A stretch of 14,422 nt of DNA, from NCBI GenBank assembly GCA_029554925.1, contig JAKPUV010000705.1:1-14422 (forward strand), written 5' to 3'. This DNA is from Candidatus Hydrogenedentota bacterium (GTDB taxonomy: Bacteria > Hydrogenedentota > Hydrogenedentia > Hydrogenedentales > CAITNO01). The notes below the pieces were generated by a model, which did no database searches, was not told where the DNA came from, and was given only the letters and a program-made list of their open reading frames with translations. Both the position numbers and the translations under genes were made by a program. Below, in pieces: positions 5,833-13,427 of this stretch (the stretch's first letter is position 1; every line of letters starts with the position of its first letter).

Positions 5833-6495
5833 ATGGTGACGATGGAAGGAGTCCGGCGCACGCTGGGGCCGGGCGTGGTGTTCCAGTGCGACGCGTTTCA
5901 CGCGGCGCCCGGCGAGCGGGTGGCCCTTTGGGGTCCGAGCGGCTGCGGCAAGTCCACCATGCTTAATCTGGTCTCCGGGCTGCTGCGCCCCCACGGGGGC
6001 GTGGTCCGGGTGGACGGGGTGGACATCACGGGGCTTTCGGGCAGCCGTCTGGACGCGTTCCGCGGGGAGCGGTACGGGTTCATCTTCCAGACCTTCAACC
6101 TCCTGTCGCCGTTCACGTCGCTGCAGAACGTGGTGCTGGGGATGCGCTTCGCCGACGTGGTGCCGGAGAAGGAGTGGAAGACGCGGGCGACGGCGATGCT
6201 GGCGCGGGTGCGGCTGGGGCACCGCCTGCACAGCCGCCCCGGCACGCTGAGCGTGGGCGAGCGGCAGCGGGTGGCCATCGCGCGGGCGCTGGTGAACCGG
6301 CCGAAGCTGATCGTGGCGGACGAGCCGACGGGGAGCCTGGACCCCAAGACGGCGGAATCGGTCATGGCGCTGCTCCTTGAGCTGTGCGCGGAGGAGGGCG
6401 TGACCCTGCTGCTGGTGACGCACGACCGCGCCGTGGCCGAACGGCTTCCGCGGATGCACGACTGCACGGAACTCGTGAAGGAGACGGTGTCATGA
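5833..6495 (+). CDS. LolD/MacB-type ABC transporter ATP-binding protein
   Basis: The 220-residue cytoplasmic ATPase is the energy-providing partner of the permease encoded next. All ABC motifs are present: Walker A GPSGCGKST (34-42), Q-loop FQTFNLL (85-91), signature LSVGERQR (139-146), Walker B LIVADE (159-164) with the D-loop TGSLD, and the switch His in THD (H197). The signature is LSVGE rather than LSGGQ, a variant seen in the LolD/MacB subfamily. PFTSLQNVVLG (93-103) is also typical of this subfamily. The ATG at 5833 has GGAG eight bases upstream. An ATG at 5790 is out of frame. The stop overlaps the permease start by four bases (ATGA), so both chains are made together. Family members drive mechanotransmission or lipoprotein release in the envelope rather than classical import. 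Substrate cannot be read from the ATPase. Confidence 0.9.
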   Translation: MVTMEGVRRTLGPGVVFQCDAFHAAPGERVALWGPSGCGKSTMLNLVSGLLRPHGGVVRVDGVDITGLSGSRLDAFRGERYGFIFQTFNLLSPFTSLQNVVLGMRFADVVPEKEWKTRATAMLARVRLGHRLHSRPGTLSVGERQRVAIARALVNRPKLIVADEPTGSLDPKTAESVMALLLELCAEEGVTLLLVTHDRAVAERLPRMHDCTELVKETVS

Positions 6496-7745
6496 GCCTG
6501 TGGCACGTCGCGTGGAACTATTTGTGGAACCGGAAACTGACCACGGCCATGACGATCATCTCGGTGGCCCTGGGCGTGGCGCTGATCTCCGCGGTGCTGA
6601 CCCTGCGCGAGCAGACGCAGAAGCGCTTCGAGGAGGAGGGGCAGGCCTTCGACCTGGTCATCGGCGCCAAGGGCAACCCCCTGCAGCTGGTGCTCAGCAC
6701 GGTGTATTTCCTGGACGCGCCCACGGGCAACATGAGCCGGGCGGACTTCGAGGAGATCGCGAAGCTGGAGGACGTGGAGGCCGCGTTCCCCCTGGGCATG
6801 GGCGACACCTTCAAGGGCTACCGCATCGTGGGCACGGACCGGGCGCTCATGGACTTCACCTGGGGCGACCGGCGCCCCTACGAGCTGGAGGAGGGGCGCT
6901 ATTTCGAGGGGGTCCGCGAGGCCGTCATCGGGGCGGCGGTGGCGCAGGACACGGGGCTCCGGGTCGGGTCGTCGTTCATCAGCACCCACGGGTTTGTGGA
7001 CATGCCCGGCGCCCACGCCCACGAGGACAAGCCCTACACGGTGGTCGGCGTCATGCGCCGCTCCGGCACCCCCAACGACCGGGCCATCTTCTGCGACATG
7101 GAGTCCGTGTGGGACGCGCACGACCACGGCGGGGAGGAGGCGGAGGAGCACGCGCACGAGCACGGGGAGGAGTGCGACCACGACCACGAAGGGGTGCGGG
7201 CGGACATCACCGCCGCCCTGGTCAAGCTGGCCTCGCCCGCGCTGCGCTTCGAGTACAAGGACCGGATCAACAAGCAGTACAACGCGATGGCCGCGGTGCC
7301 GGTGAACGAGATCCAGAAGCTCTACGAGCAGCTGCTGGGCACGGCGAAGGCGGTGCTGCTGGCCATCGGCTACCTCGTGGTCGTCATCTCCTCCATGTCC
7401 ATCCTCATCGGCCTGTACATGTCCATCCTGCAGCGCCGGCGCGACCTGGCCGTCATGCGCGCCCTCGGCGCCACGCGCGGCGAGATCTTCGGCGCCGTCC
7501 TCATCGAGGCCTTCTGGGTCACCGTGCTGGGCATCGGGGTGGGATGGATCCTCGGCGCCGTGGTATGCTACGGGCTGGGCATGTACCTGGTGGCGAAGCT
7601 CGGGTTCCACGTCTCCGCCGTGGCCCTCGGGCCGGACCTGGTCACCGCCTACTCCGCGGTCCTGCTCATGGGCCTGGTGGCGGGCATCCTCCCCGCGTGG
7701 CAGGCCTACCGGACCGACATCGCGCGCGACCTCGCGGAACTCTAG
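6492..7745 (+). CDS. FtsX/MacB-type ABC permease with histidine-rich periplasmic segment
   Basis: The 417-residue inner-membrane protein has the four-helix MacB/LolE layout. One transmembrane helix lies at about 17-37, then a large periplasmic domain (about 40-280), then three helices at about 285-312, 333-363 and 383-403. The FtsX-type motif RRRDLAVMRALGATRGEIF (315-333) lies after the second helix. The periplasmic domain carries an acidic, histidine-rich stretch (208-234; H210, H212, H220, H222, H224, C228, H230, H232) and an earlier HAH (175-177). Such runs usually bind Zn, Ni or Cu ions. The start at 6492 overlaps the ATPase stop by four bases and gives the expected short MSLWHVAWNYLWNRKL cytoplasmic lead; a start 36 codons earlier would run inside the ATPase gene. 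With the following DUF3299 gene the set resembles the zinc-regulated PA4063-PA4066 locus of Pseudomonas aeruginosa, as I recall it. A metal-linked role is inferred. Confidence 0.88.
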   Translation: MSLWHVAWNYLWNRKLTTAMTIISVALGVALISAVLTLREQTQKRFEEEGQAFDLVIGAKGNPLQLVLSTVYFLDAPTGNMSRADFEEIAKLEDVEAAFPLGMGDTFKGYRIVGTDRALMDFTWGDRRPYELEEGRYFEGVREAVIGAAVAQDTGLRVGSSFISTHGFVDMPGAHAHEDKPYTVVGVMRRSGTPNDRAIFCDMESVWDAHDHGGEEAEEHAHEHGEECDHDHEGVRADITAALVKLASPALRFEYKDRINKQYNAMAAVPVNEIQKLYEQLLGTAKAVLLAIGYLVVVISSMSILIGLYMSILQRRRDLAVMRALGATRGEIFGAVLIEAFWVTVLGIGVGWILGAVVCYGLGMYLVAKLGFHVSAVALGPDLVTAYSAVLLMGLVAGILPAWQAYRTDIARDLAEL

Positions 7746-8763: not shown

Positions 8764-9249
8764 ATGAGCGTCTACTTCGGCGAATATCATGTGTCTTTGG
8801 ATGAGCGCGGGAGGTTTCCCGTGCCCATGGACCTCCGCAAACTGATGCAGGAACGCGGCGATCTGTCCTGGGCCGTCGCCCGGGGGTTTGACGACGCGCT
8901 TTTCGTCTATCCCGAGCCGAAGTACCGCGAGGTGATGGGCCGCCTGACGGACGGCGCCATGGACCCCGAGGTGCTGGCGTTCCTGCGCCACTTCGGCGCC
9001 GCATCCTTCACACAGCTCGACACGCAGGGGAGGCTGCTCGTCGGTTCGTCCCTGAGGGACTACGCGGGTTTCCTGCGCGAGGCGATCCTGATCGGGGTGG
9101 GCGAGACGCTCGAACTGTGGAGCGTCTCAGGATGGAGGAAGTACCAGCAGGACCAGAAGGACAACTACAAGGCTGTGGCGGCCGGGCTGTTCGGCCGCCG
9201 TGTGAGTGGCTGCGGGCAAAGAACGGAAGAAGGGAGCACGGGATGCTGA
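8764..9249 (+). CDS. mraZ: Transcriptional regulator MraZ
   Basis: The 161-residue DNA-binding regulator usually opens the dcw cluster and represses it. It has two SpoVT/AbrB-like halves, each with the DxxxR motif: GEYHVSLDERGRFPVP (6-21, D13 and R17) and ASFTQLDTQGRLLV (80-93, D86 and R90). EAILIGVGETLELWS (106-120) is the usual end of the second half. The start at 8764 gives the family's short lead (MSVYF before GEYH); in-frame GTG codons at 8722 and 8737 would add up to 14 residues and lie close to the transcription start. The Shine-Dalgarno is poor (GGATTGGG, 8754-8761), so translation may be weak. The last residues (GRRVSGCGQRTEEGSTGC) are a short basic/Gly-rich tail. The end overlaps the next gene by seven bases. 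Confidence 0.9.
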   Translation: MSVYFGEYHVSLDERGRFPVPMDLRKLMQERGDLSWAVARGFDDALFVYPEPKYREVMGRLTDGAMDPEVLAFLRHFGAASFTQLDTQGRLLVGSSLRDYAGFLREAILIGVGETLELWSVSGWRKYQQDQKDNYKAVAAGLFGRRVSGCGQRTEEGSTGC

Positions 9250-9596
9250 ACGTGGAGCGGCTGGAGAACGGGGCTGTGACGGTGCTGCGCCTTCGCGGCG
9301 TGATCGACGAGGAGGGCGTGGCCGTGCTTCGGCTGGCGCTTTCCGGGTGCGTGCGCGACGGACGGCACAAGGTGGTGCTGAATCTGGCGGGGGTGGGGTT
9401 TGTCAGTTATCTGAGCATGGCGGTGATTCTGGAGCGGCTCGGGCAGTTCCGGGCGGCGAAGGGCGACCTGAAGCTGGCCTGCCTGAGCCTCTACATGCGC
9501 ATGCTGCTGCGGCAGATGGCGCTGACGCACCAGTTTGACTGCCACGAGACCGAGGTGCAGGCCGTCACAGGGTTCTCGGCGCCCGCGGCGGCCTGA
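9243..9596 (+). CDS. STAS-domain protein (anti-sigma factor antagonist-like) inside the dcw cluster
   Basis: The 117-residue cytoplasmic protein looks like a single STAS domain, the fold of SpoIIAA-like anti-anti-sigma factors. The order of elements fits: VTVLRLRGVIDEEGVAVL (12-29), HKVVLNLAGVGFVSY (42-56), an amphipathic helix around SMAVILERLGQFRAAKG (58-74) and LKLACLS (76-82). The usual phospho-site D-[ST]-S-G-L is not intact; the place reads VSYLSMAVI, where S55 or S58 might substitute. This suggests a partner switch without the normal phosphorylation, or a different role. The ATG at 9243 has GGGAG (9232-9236) six bases upstream, and the start overlaps the mraZ stop by seven bases. An in-frame ATG at 9117 would lie deep in mraZ. 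The next gene, rsmH, starts 19 bases later. A STAS gene here is not part of the standard dcw order. Confidence 0.78.
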   Translation: MLNVERLENGAVTVLRLRGVIDEEGVAVLRLALSGCVRDGRHKVVLNLAGVGFVSYLSMAVILERLGQFRAAKGDLKLACLSLYMRMLLRQMALTHQFDCHETEVQAVTGFSAPAAA

Positions 9597-10582: not shown

Positions 10583-11143
10583 ATGCACAAGGGATGGAGC
10601 AGGATCAAGGTGCGGCAGGCGCGCTACGGATGGATCGTCTGGGCGCCCCTGGTGGCGTTTCTGTTCGGCATGATGGCCTGGGACGCCTCCCTCAACATCC
10701 GGCTGCGCCGGACCGACTACGAGTTCCACAAGGCCGAAACGGAGCGGCGCGCCACGGTGCGCCGGCTCGATGAGAAACTCGCTCTTGAGGCGCAGATGAA
10801 GAGCATGGAATGGCTCACGGCGCAGGCCGAGGCCCTGGGGCTCCGCGCCCCGGCGCTGGAGCAGGTGGAGGTGGTCCGGATGGACACGCTTCTCGAACTG
10901 CCCCTGCTCCTGGACGCGCCGGAGGTGCTGCCGCCCCTGGCGCCGCCCGCGCCCGCGGCGCCGGACGCCGCGCCGGACTCGGGCGGTGGGCGCGGGGCGC
11001 TGCTGGCCGCGGCGCCGGGGCTGTCGGGCCCGGTCCCGCAGACTGCCACGGCCCCCGCGGCGGCAGCGGCCGCCCCGCCCCCCGCGGCGGCGGAGGCCAC
11101 GCCGCTGGACAAGTCCCTGGACGCGCTGATTTCACCGCTGTAA
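10583..11143 (+). CDS. ftsL: FtsL-like cell division protein with long Ala/Pro-rich C-terminal extension
   Basis: The 186-residue bitopic membrane protein is in the ftsL position and has its layout: a short basic cytoplasmic end (1-16), one transmembrane helix (about 17-35) and a periplasmic coiled-coil region (about 40-84). The usual closing segment, EWLTAQAEALGLRAPALEQVEVV (76-98), resembles the end of FtsL domains. FtsL with FtsB and FtsQ activates septal peptidoglycan synthesis by FtsW/FtsI. Unlike ordinary FtsL (about 90-120 residues), it continues with a Pro/Ala-rich linker (about 112-172) and ends in PLDKSLDALISPL (174-186), a motif also present in the next protein. AAGGAGG (10567-10573) lies nine bases before the ATG, four bases after the rsmH stop. 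Sequence identity of FtsL is always low, so the call relies on position and topology. Confidence 0.78.
   Translation: MHKGWSRIKVRQARYGWIVWAPLVAFLFGMMAWDASLNIRLRRTDYEFHKAETERRATVRRLDEKLALEAQMKSMEWLTAQAEALGLRAPALEQVEVVRMDTLLELPLLLDAPEVLPPLAPPAPAAPDAAPDSGGGRGALLAAAPGLSGPVPQTATAPAAAAAAPPPAAAEATPLDKSLDALISPL
11102..11140 (+). other. C-terminal PLDxSLxALISPL motif of the FtsL-like protein
   Basis: These codons encode PLDKSLDALISPL, the last 13 residues before the stop. Eight of 13 residues are identical and most others conservative with PIDESLSAMITPL in the FtsI-like protein (13110-13148). It follows a disordered linker, so it would be an exposed periplasmic tail peptide. Confidence 0.7.
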
Positions 11144-11171
11144 CCGGCAACCACCCGGGGGAGGCCTTAAC

Positions 11172-13427
11172 ATGGGCTACCGCAACATTTCCTCTAAATC
11201 GCCCATCATGGTCGAACTGGAAGACCTGCGCCCGGGGGCGCCGCAGCAGCGGGCGGTCTGGGTGCTGTTCGGCCTGTTCATGCTCGTGGCCATCGTGCTC
11301 GGCCTCCGGCTCCACCTGCTCCATTTCACCCCCGGCGAGAAACTGCTGGAGGAGCAGCGCTTCCATGTGGTGGAGATCCCAATCACGGAGCCGCGGGGGG
11401 AGATTTTCGACCGGAACGGGGTGATACTGGCGACCAACCAGGAGGCGCCCTCTCTCTGGGTGGACCCGCGCGACGTGGCGGACGACCGCCAGGACGAGGT
11501 GGCCGCCGTGATCTCCGGGCGGCTGGGCATTCCCCTGCCGGAGGTGATGGCCGCCCTCGTGAAGCGGGACGAGGCCGGCAAGGTCCGCAAGTTCTCCATG
11601 CTTAAGCGGTGGGTGACGGACATGACCGGTGAGGAGGTGGCGCGGCTGCAGGCGGAGACCGGCGGCGCGGTCCGCGTGGTCAAGGAGACCATCCGCCATT
11701 ACCCGCACAAGGACGCGGCGGCCCATCTGCTGGGCTACGTTAACCGGTCCGGGGAGCTTTGCGAGGGGGTGGAAAAGGCTTACAACCGGCACCTGAAAAG
11801 CCACGCCGGGGTGCTGCGGGCGCGGGCGGACAACCGGCGGCGCCCGCTGCCGTCGGAAACCCTGGACTACCGGGAGGCCGAGGGCGGCGAGCTGCTGCAG
11901 CTCACGATAGACCTGAACATCCAGCACAACCTGGAGGCCGCGCTCGACGCGCGCATGGAGGAGACGGGGGCGAAGGAGGCGATGGGGGTGGTGATGAACC
12001 CCAAGACCGGCGAGATCTACGCGCTGGCGAGCCGCCCGGCGTTCAACCCGAACGAGTACGACAAGTTTCCCGCCGAACTGCGCAAGAACCGGGCGCTGGT
12101 GGACGTGTTCGAGCCGGGCTCGGCCTTCAAGATCGTCACCGCCGCCGCGGCGCTCGAGCACGGCCTGGTCACGCCCAACACGATGATCAACTGCGAGGGC
12201 GGGCGCTTCAACCCCTACGGCCACTCCATCGGCGACTTCCACAAGCTGGGGGTGGAGCCCTTCTGGAAGTGCTTCGAGGAGTCGAGCAACATCGCCATCA
12301 TCAAGGTGGCCGCCATGCTCGGCGAGGCGCGCCTGGAGGAGTGGATCCGGCGTTTCGGGTTCGCCGCCCCCACGTCCCGCGACTTCCCCGGCGAGAGCAT
12401 CGGCCTCTTCCGCCCCCGGAGCAAATGGTCCAAACTGAGCATGGGCGCCCTGCCCATGGGGCAGGAAATCTCGGTCACCACGCTCCAGCTCGCCCGCGCC
12501 TTTGCGGTGCTGGCAAACGACGGGCGGGTGGTGGAGCCCTACTTCGTGGAGCGGGCGGTGGCGCGCGACGGCCGGGTCACCTACCAGCACGAGCCCGTGG
12601 TCTCCGAGAGGATCCTCTCCCCGCGCACGGTGGAGACGATGCGCATGCTGTGCCACCAGGTGGTGCTGCACGGCACCGGAAGCGCCGCGAACATGATGGA
12701 ATACCGGGCGGGCGGCAAGACGGGCACGGCGCAGATGGCCAAGGCGGGCGGCGGCGGCTACGACGCCAACCGCTACACGGCGGTCTTCGCGGGCTTTGCG
12801 CCCATCGCCGACCCCCGGATCGTGGCCGCCATCGTCGTGCAGGAACCCAAAATCCGCCTGAGGTATGGAGGGTATGTGTGCGGCCCGGTCTTCAAGAAGG
12901 TGGTCGGCGAGGCGCTGGCCTCGATGAGCGTGCCCGGGGACCCGGTCACGGACCCGGAACTCGTCGCCAAGCACGAGAAGGAAAAGGAGAAGGCGGAGAA
13001 GGAGAAGCTGGCGAAGAACAAGAAGGATGCGAGGCCCGCGCCCGCCAAGCCGGCCGAAGAGCCCCGGGAAGCCGAGGAGGCCGGGGATCCCGACACGGCG
13101 GCCTTTGTGCCGATTGACGAGTCGCTGTCCGCCATGATCACCCCGCTCGACGGCCTGGACCTGGTCGCGCGGAAGATGGGCGACCGGCTGGAGACCTCGC
13201 TGCCCGACCTGGCGGGCCTGACCAAGCGTCAGGCGCGCGAGCGACTGCAGCGGCTGGGCGTGCCCATGGACGCCCAGGGCGAGGGATGGGTGGTGGCGCA
13301 GAACCCGCCGCCGGGCACCGCGCTCGGCGAGGACCTGGTGTGCAGCCTTGAATTCGCGCGGAAGGGGCAGCCCCTTCCGGCGGAGGAGACGCCGAAAGAG
13401 GAAAATGAACCGCAGTCAGCTCAGTGA
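11172..13427 (+). CDS. ftsI: FtsI/PBP2-type penicillin-binding protein with one PASTA domain
   Basis: The 751-residue class B transpeptidase cross-links septal peptidoglycan. It has one membrane anchor (about 29-48), a dimerisation/pedestal domain that includes EPRGEIFDRNGVILATN (73-89), and a transpeptidase domain (about 240-585). The three active-site motifs are complete: S317-A-F-K320, S371-S-N373 and K516-T-G518. A highly charged Lys/Glu linker (about 598-640) and the motif PIDESLSAMITPL (647-659) lead to one PASTA domain (about 677-728; LPDLAGLTKRQARERL to NPPPGT). PASTA domains occur in PBP2x/SpoVD of Gram-positives and in some diderm lineages, but not in enterobacterial FtsI. At 751 residues it is longer than typical FtsI (about 580). 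The ATG at 11172 has GGGAGG seven to eight bases upstream. The end overlaps murE by 23 bases. It would act with the FtsL-like protein encoded just before it. Confidence 0.93.
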   Translation: MGYRNISSKSPIMVELEDLRPGAPQQRAVWVLFGLFMLVAIVLGLRLHLLHFTPGEKLLEEQRFHVVEIPITEPRGEIFDRNGVILATNQEAPSLWVDPRDVADDRQDEVAAVISGRLGIPLPEVMAALVKRDEAGKVRKFSMLKRWVTDMTGEEVARLQAETGGAVRVVKETIRHYPHKDAAAHLLGYVNRSGELCEGVEKAYNRHLKSHAGVLRARADNRRRPLPSETLDYREAEGGELLQLTIDLNIQHNLEAALDARMEETGAKEAMGVVMNPKTGEIYALASRPAFNPNEYDKFPAELRKNRALVDVFEPGSAFKIVTAAAALEHGLVTPNTMINCEGGRFNPYGHSIGDFHKLGVEPFWKCFEESSNIAIIKVAAMLGEARLEEWIRRFGFAAPTSRDFPGESIGLFRPRSKWSKLSMGALPMGQEISVTTLQLARAFAVLANDGRVVEPYFVERAVARDGRVTYQHEPVVSERILSPRTVETMRMLCHQVVLHGTGSAANMMEYRAGGKTGTAQMAKAGGGGYDANRYTAVFAGFAPIADPRIVAAIVVQEPKIRLRYGGYVCGPVFKKVVGEALASMSVPGDPVTDPELVAKHEKEKEKAEKEKLAKNKKDARPAPAKPAEEPREAEEAGDPDTAAFVPIDESLSAMITPLDGLDLVARKMGDRLETSLPDLAGLTKRQARERLQRLGVPMDAQGEGWVVAQNPPPGTALGEDLVCSLEFARKGQPLPAEETPKEENEPQSAQ
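13110..13148 (+). other. Internal PIDxSLxAMITPL motif of the FtsI-like protein
   Basis: These codons encode residues 647-659 (PIDESLSAMITPL), between the charged linker and the PASTA domain. The matching peptide ends the FtsL-like protein (11102-11140). Most corresponding codons differ between the copies (for example TCC/TCG for Ser, ATT/ATC for Ile, CTG/CTC for the last Leu), which argues for conservation at protein level rather than a recent DNA duplication. Confidence 0.7.

Follow-up and report, generated by a model that had tools for sequence, protein, structure and literature searches.

Why do two proteins of the division machinery carry a similar short peptide outside the cytoplasm? The question is raised by a 14,422-nucleotide stretch of DNA from a Candidatus Hydrogenedentota bacterium, here called the window, which is contig JAKPUV010000705.1 (C1318) of a 4.7-Mb assembly in 1350 contigs (GCA_029554925.1) and whose end holds a division and cell wall (dcw) gene cluster. 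In this cluster, an FtsL-like protein ends in PLDKSLDALISPL, and the FtsI-like protein encoded next to it carries PIDESLSAMITPL in the linker ahead of its PASTA domain. We report that the peptide is conserved within otherwise variable linkers of both proteins and that a cell wall amidase is probably a third carrier; docking of all three on a common periplasmic partner is a reading to which we give an even chance.

The shared peptide of FtsL and FtsI

The sequence-only reading of the window located the two copies at residues 174 to 186 of FtsL, its C-terminus, and at residues 647 to 659 of FtsI, and both positions are correct, as is the claimed identity of 8 of 13 residues. With a BLOSUM62 score of 46, PLDKSLDALISPL and PIDESLSAMITPL are the top ungapped 13-mer pair when FtsL from residue 41 is compared with the entire FtsI. 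This score was reached by none of 2000 FtsL shuffles compared with the true FtsI (best shuffle, 43) and by none of 2000 double shuffles, and chance is excluded for the pair. The copies had also been said to use largely different synonymous codons; this is true of four of the eight identical residues, and the other four are encoded by the same codon.

Orthologue matches were obtained for FtsI in 100 of the 100 genomes searched and for FtsL in 49 of 100, the window's own genome being counted. The first FtsI alignment consisted of the window sequence and 76 homologues hand-picked from 120, several of the omitted ones having no clear motif; the FtsI conservation analysis and the scan of FtsL were repeated with the window and all 120 homologues. 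In this full set of 121 sequences, mean relative entropy was 1.77 bits over FtsI residues 647 to 668, compared with 1.00 bits over residues 592 to 635 and 0.82 bits over residues 669 to 675 (1.91, 1.02, and 0.92 bits, respectively, in the hand-picked set of 77). Leucine occupies position L659 in 107 of the 121 sequences and proline position P658 in 84, and the flanking residues D639 (114 sequences), D641 (113), D660 (101), and L664 (116) are likewise kept.

The window's order was represented by 68 genomes (G000 to G067), in 63 of which the ftsL-ftsI region was read; ftsI was not included for G013, G014, G059, G064, and G065, and genomes without a readable gene are absent from single tests. The families of this order were divided into those with a tail-bearing FtsL (f1, f2, f3, f6, f7, f9, f10, and f11) and the others (f4, f5, and f8). 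In 32 genomes of the tail-bearing families, the FtsL C-terminus has aspartate at position -11 in 17, serine or threonine at -9 in 18, leucine or methionine at -5 in 20, and leucine at -4 in 19 and at -1 in 26, with phenylalanine or isoleucine as the last residue in 3. Columns -4, -5, and -11 reach 1.75 to 1.88 bits, compared with 0.31 to 0.95 bits for columns -12 to -34, and the tails vary in length and letters across the tail families while the C-terminus stays conserved. In FtsI and at the FtsL C-terminus alike, the motif is an island of conservation within variable linkers. This is the outcome of the orthologue alignment that the sequence-only reading had proposed as a check: the motif is conserved in several families, and the linkers around it are less so. 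In f4, f5, and f8, the FtsL tail is mostly shorter and has a different ending, and loss of the motif is shared by family.

In the f3 genomes G018 (L080) and G026 (L082), the last three residues of FtsL are GSF, and L[DE][SP]F stands in the FtsI linker in place of the [SP]L of others; the change from leucine to phenylalanine in the two proteins is maybe parallel.

Next, profiles built from one protein were run on the other. The FtsI-only profile excluded the closest relatives (rows more than 58% identical to the window, 6 of 77 in the first set and 11 of 121 in the full set), and significance was judged against shuffled linkers; the near-duplicates L104 and L105 (of G005 and G010) were excluded from the tested rows and retained in some profiles and backgrounds. 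With this profile, the C-terminal 12-mer of FtsL was the top-scoring segment in 20 of 32 tail-family genomes and in none of 28 genomes of f4, f5, and f8, and FtsL reached a P value below 0.01 in 21 of 32 versus 0 of 28. The profile from all homologues gave almost the same counts (top segment, 19 of 32 versus 0 of 28; P < 0.01, 21 versus 0). In the window's own FtsL, the top segment is the C-terminal motif copy. In the reverse direction, an FtsL-only profile from which the tested genus had been excluded reached P < 0.05 in the FtsI linkers of 21 of 34 tail-family genomes versus 3 of 26 others, and the exact motif was the best FtsI segment in all 15 f1 genomes. The tests in both directions support a real motif common to FtsL and FtsI.

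A probable third carrier, the cell wall amidase

A genome scan with a joint model first flagged the linker of an amidase in G005. At least one Amidase_3 protein was found in 67 of 67 genomes, and 51 amidase linkers were read, 30 and 20 of them from loci of Amidase_3 searches and one from the joint-model scan. The f1 amidases have a conserved peptide at one aligned place of the linker. Among others, this f1 peptide reads LEEDPAALLAPL in G002, EEEDPAALLETV in G001, DEEDPATLLETV in the window genome (G000), HTESPDALLTPL in G005, and LDEDPGLLLETL in G014, and the peptide is kept in 10 of 11 close amidase homologues (P0127 to P0137).

A profile of FtsI and FtsL peptides that contained no amidases reached P < 0.05 in 10 of 17 f1 amidase linkers (9 of 17 when first run) and in 9 of 16 when G005, the genome that prompted the search, was left out. 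In the same linker test, two control sets scored lower: a second amidase paralogue gave 0 of 12 (12 of 15 loci being usable), and the SPOR protein gave 2 of 14. The sequence-only reading had named two results that would count against it, absence of the pattern from orthologues and an equal frequency in other linkers, and neither occurred as stated; the pattern was found in orthologues of several families, and its rate in the other linkers tested is lower. Outside f1, the amidase signal is weak. Among the amidases of f2, f3, f6, f9, f10, and f11, 4 of 14 reached P < 0.05, the segment of G024 lying outside the linker, and in f4, f5, and f8, 2 of 20 did so.

We then compared peptides within and between genomes. 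The 22-residue motif region of FtsI was closer to the amidase linker of its own genome than to swapped linkers (P = 0.004 by genus; P = 0.027 without the top genus), and three control linker stretches were not significant (FtsI, 0.22, and FtsL, 0.33, both versus the amidase; the third, 0.60); several versions of this pairing test were made, and the P values are not corrected for their number. In G017, a genome of f2, FtsL PASSPDESTAMLA and amidase PAENPDESEAQLA have PDESxAxLA in common (13-mer P = 0.006). By its sequence, the amidase is probably a third carrier of a related peptide besides FtsL and FtsI, and given this peptide the network of carriers may be larger than the sequence-only reading saw.

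The Amidase_3 catalytic domain was recognized by Pfam in P0131, P0127, P0134, and P0138, and matches in a structure comparison of the amidase model cover residues 236 to 425 in nearly all rows. The N-terminus appears hydrophobic by eye, and the N-terminal domain gave no Pfam hit above cut-off. In two amidase linkers of f11 (L232 and L235, of G030 and G048), PLES[VI]-like near-copies occur more than once, as if the peptide were repeated.

Proposed docking on a common partner and its alternatives

The consensus of the motif is roughly [LI]-[DE]-x-S-[LP]-x-x-[LM]-[LIM]-x-[PST]-L, apparently placed in, or at the end of, linkers outside the cytoplasm. The reading that we favor, at even chances, is that FtsL, FtsI, and the amidase share a helix-forming linear motif that docks on a common periplasmic partner. 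On binding, the peptide would form an amphipathic helix, one-sided and roughly two turns long, and its leucines would occupy a groove of a common periplasmic division protein, so that FtsL, FtsI, and the amidase would gather at this partner or alternate on it. Such docking would link the building of the septal wall to its cutting. In an AlphaFold2 model of FtsI built from 77 sequences (mean pLDDT, 87.6), the PASTA domain is ordered and the motif is predicted as a short helix at residues 649 to 655 with low confidence (pLDDT of about 37 to 50). In an AlphaFold model of the amidase built from 12 sequences (mean, 65.7), residues 137 to 229, which include the motif, lie below 50. The low confidence, itself no proof of disorder, fits a peptide that requires a partner on another chain; in these models, the motif may also dock in cis on its own FtsI or amidase chain.

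To look for further carriers, whole genomes were scanned. At E values of up to 10, the joint model matched two places in the window genome, FtsI and FtsL, a result that is partly circular; the FtsI, FtsL, and amidase matches of models A1 and A4 are partly circular as well, because these models contain peptides of the searched genomes. The FtsI-only model A3, without any peptide of the window's genus or of G002, matched three places in the window genome, FtsI (E value of 0.069), FtsL (0.37), and an exported-looking protein (0.66). In all, this model recovered FtsL in 2 of 67 genomes, G000 (E value of 0.37) and G001 (0.27). Across 67 genomes, the joint model returned 44 rows, of which 22 were FtsI or FtsL, 1 was an amidase, and 21 were others.

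Thirteen further scan places, among them aldo/keto reductases, a protein kinase, a sigma-factor-like protein, and wrong-strand-looking frames, were judged to be chance, two excepted. An aldo/keto reductase in three f7 genomes (L176 to L178) carries LESN[LI]xALLxPL, and the 12-residue pattern thus also occurs in folded enzymes. Two exported-looking proteins are possible carriers: one (L179, G024:C527) has a hydrophobic start and a Ser/Pro stretch followed by DLDQSLGNLIDPM, and the other (L181, G000:C557) has FAADLDALLKP right behind a signal-like segment. A 21-bit match in G012 was discarded, as it sits in a 52-residue frame opposing a 491-residue frame. With a three-protein model, the frames read gave only single enzyme-like ones beyond FtsI, FtsL, and the amidase. 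M23 peptidases, with frames from 28 of 30 loci, had top scores of 8.6, in a hydrophobic segment, and 6.3, compared with 16 to 27 for five reference peptides; this test is partial, some loci (such as L272 in G001 and L275 in G000) having been read on the other strand.

Of 16 genomes searched, 14 yielded a single SPOR (FtsN-like) protein each. A pooled profile run on the whole protein reached P < 0.05 in none of the 14, and the two significant linkers mentioned above are those of G001 and G012. Five SPOR proteins (L304, L307, L299, L300, and L309, of G000, G001, G014, G016, and G003) have [ELA]LTP[VI] followed by acidic residues; ELTPVDPKDDDPALV of G000, for example, closely resembles the flank of the amidase motif, which is ELTPVVPDAPALDEDPGLLLETL in G014. 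The Pfam profile of FtsQ matched in 3 of 70 genomes. By eye, FtsQ-like frames precede ftsZ in families that have the motif and in families that lack it, and the presence of FtsQ alone therefore does not explain the pattern of the motif; an altered FtsQ surface could.

Several results weigh against docking of the three proteins on one partner. Among the proteins examined, no docking partner was identified. The tail families were defined after the tails had been inspected, and genomes that are related do not count as independent observations. The FtsI motif is worn down or lost in f4, f5, and f8, and even in the tail families the FtsL tails of f10 and the FtsI linkers of f7, f3, and f9 match the profiles poorly. 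In a plain BLOSUM comparison, the FtsL tail was significantly similar to the FtsI linker of its own genome in only 4 of 31 tail-family genomes (G000, G001, G002, and G048), compared with 1 of 25 in the non-tail families, and own FtsL-FtsI pairs were not significantly closer than swapped ones (P = 0.24 by family, 0.30 by genus, and 0.15 with the FtsI motif region only). The likeness at the profile level is thus broad, but near-identity is limited to the close kin of the window.

The amidase adds further difficulties. P0136 has lost the peptide, and ten more distant homologues (P0138 to P0147) are without it; the window genome's DEEDPATLLETV alone gives P = 0.28, and in G011 the significant segment is shifted off the aligned place. 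The combined Fisher P value for the amidases is 0.003 in f4, f5, and f8 (5e-9 in f1), partly owing to G053, whose FtsL has no tail. A first FtsI-amidase pairing test, in which the motif was mis-cut in at least three genomes, gave P = 0.12. Pairing of the FtsL tail with the amidase gave P = 0.038 and 0.035, but 0.46 without G017, and the top ungapped FtsL-amidase 13-mer reached P < 0.05 in 5 of 46 genomes, lying near the FtsL end only in G017. Taken together with the preceding tests, the original claim of a selected linear motif shared outside the cytoplasm holds for conservation in orthologues and for the profiles in both directions; it does not extend to f4, f5, and f8 (FtsL, 0 of 28; FtsI, 3 of 26), nor is it borne out by co-change of FtsL and FtsI, for which none of the three P values is significant.

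The alternative that survives best is convergence by composition, in which acidic, leucine-bearing helices would be common in Ala/Pro linkers that need structure and would share no function. The weak matches in cytoplasmic enzymes (the aldo/keto reductase of three f7 genomes) and in wrong-strand-looking frames are expected under this explanation, as are a strong BLOSUM-level match in few genomes and a combined amidase signal that extends somewhat beyond the motif families. The motif nevertheless has a fixed position and is conserved in each protein, the profile tests succeed in both directions against shuffled linkers, and rates in two other linker sets are low; we consider convergence unlikely.

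Ranking just behind it, and also improbable, is the possibility that the motif is its own partner. The FtsL tail helix would pack directly on the helix of FtsI (and of the amidase) in a short coil of two strands, which would give FtsL an additional contact with FtsI. The motif has leucine-type residues at positions 2, 6, 9, and 13, a coil-like 4-3-4 spacing, and by family it is mostly present in both FtsL and FtsI or in neither. An FtsL-FtsI contact is also known in Pseudomonas aeruginosa (PMC7614612). About 11 residues are, however, short for a coil, proline is frequent at motif position 12 of FtsI (84 of 121 sequences), and FtsL and FtsI show no significant co-change.

A third alternative, quite improbable and placed below self-pairing, treats the FtsL copy as a C-terminal tag that a periplasmic protease or chaperone of the PDZ type would recognize, and its likeness to FtsI as merely general. 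Prc/Tsp-like proteases are known to respond to hydrophobic tags at the C-terminus, and FtsL does have a free hydrophobic carboxyl end, as given by its last residues. The FtsI and amidase copies are internal, however, and conservation in FtsL extends 11 residues back, to column -11. Finally, duplication or gene conversion between the neighboring ftsL and ftsI genes is hardly credible as the origin of one copy. In its favor, the genes lie side by side, the two peptides resemble each other most in G000 to G002, and four of the eight identical residues use the same codon. Both copies are, however, separately conserved across several families of the phylum, so that any such event would date far back and its product would since have been maintained by selection.

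An extension of the docking reading remains tentative and is on balance doubtful. In it, the Hydrogenedentota would possess a docking-peptide code in which one periplasmic hub reads the helical peptide of FtsL, FtsI, the amidase, and perhaps the SPOR protein; occupancy of the hub would couple septal wall synthesis to splitting, and the code would have been lost as a unit in some families.

The locus and its relation to known division systems

The cluster at the window end comprises mraZ (Pfam MraZ), rsmH (MraW), the FtsL-like gene, ftsI, and murE, and in G001, G002, and G030 it seemingly continues as murE, murF, mraY, murD, ftsW, and murG (names by eye). The features that bear on the motif are listed in Table 1. 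The FtsL-like gene is identified as such by its place between rsmH and ftsI and by a single hydrophobic segment, the topology being taken from hydropathy. Its product matched no Pfam family at an E value of 0.1, and NCBIfam FtsL_Actino matched at 0.028 with 14.3 bits, under the cut-off of 55. FtsI has the dimer and transpeptidase domains and the dcw cluster position of a class B penicillin-binding protein; its top NCBIfam model is SpoVD, with 395.7 bits, under the cut-off of 688.

Table 1. Features of the ftsL-ftsI region in window coordinates, with FtsI domains given by residue.
Feature	Position	Strand	Description
ftsL-like gene	10583..11143	+	186 aa; a single hydrophobic segment after a short N-terminus, then a charged stretch and a long Ala/Pro-rich tail
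Motif copy 1, PLDKSLDALISPL	11102..11140	+	final 13 codons preceding TAA
ftsI-like gene	11172..13427	+	751 aa; class B penicillin-binding protein, one PASTA domain
PBP_dimer (Pfam)			FtsI residues 72-198
Transpeptidase (Pfam)			FtsI residues 272-578
PASTA (Pfam)			FtsI residues 677-718
DPDT (consensus D-A-D-T)	13086..13097	+	FtsI residues 639-642, just N-terminal of motif; conserved
Motif copy 2, PIDESLSAMITPL	13110..13148	+	between transpeptidase and PASTA domains
DGLDLVA (consensus D-G-L-E-L-V-A)	13149..13169	+	FtsI residues 660-666, directly after motif; conserved

FtsI resembles SpoVD/PBP2x-type class B penicillin-binding proteins in its dimer domain, transpeptidase domain, and C-terminal PASTA domain; it differs from them in that some 100 linker residues (578 to 677), D-A-D-T and the motif among them, separate the transpeptidase from PASTA. 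The amidase differs from AmiA/AmiB/AmiC-type division amidases in its long peptide-bearing linker and in its N-terminal domain without a Pfam assignment. The conserved C-terminal peptide of FtsZ stands at the end of a variable linker and is used by several division proteins. The FtsL copy is similar in being a short conserved peptide that ends a variable linker. The FtsZ peptide, however, is cytoplasmic and belongs to one protein read by many, whereas here several extracytoplasmic carriers would be read by a presumed single partner. By eye, FtsZ in the Hydrogenedentota genomes terminates in an IPAF-like sequence of its own.

In the P. aeruginosa FtsWIQBL complex, as described in PMC7614612, FtsL contacts FtsI via its coil and its alpha2/beta1 end and terminates as a strand that extends the FtsQ-FtsB sheet. 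Like this core, the system described here has FtsL beside FtsI outside the membrane; unlike P. aeruginosa FtsL, as far as that description goes, FtsL here has a long Ala/Pro-rich tail ending in a leucine-bearing peptide that recurs in FtsI. Searches of open-licence literature on FtsL and FtsI, on the Hydrogenedentota divisome, and on broader topics, at the level of titles and abstract openings, revealed no motif of this kind.

How septal wall synthesis is coordinated with wall cutting is an open question. If docking on a common partner is correct, one peptide in FtsL, FtsI, and the amidase would provide a direct, testable physical link between the two and a periplasmic counterpart to the FtsZ tail. 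The peptide could also serve as bait for division proteins in an uncultured phylum that is represented here by metagenome assemblies.

Two further features of the window were read by eye. A small STAS-like frame lies at 9243-9596, between mraZ and rsmH, and to our knowledge a STAS-like gene is an unusual neighbor in a dcw cluster. At 5833-7745 stands an ABC transporter ATPase and permease pair with the look of MacB/LolCDE.

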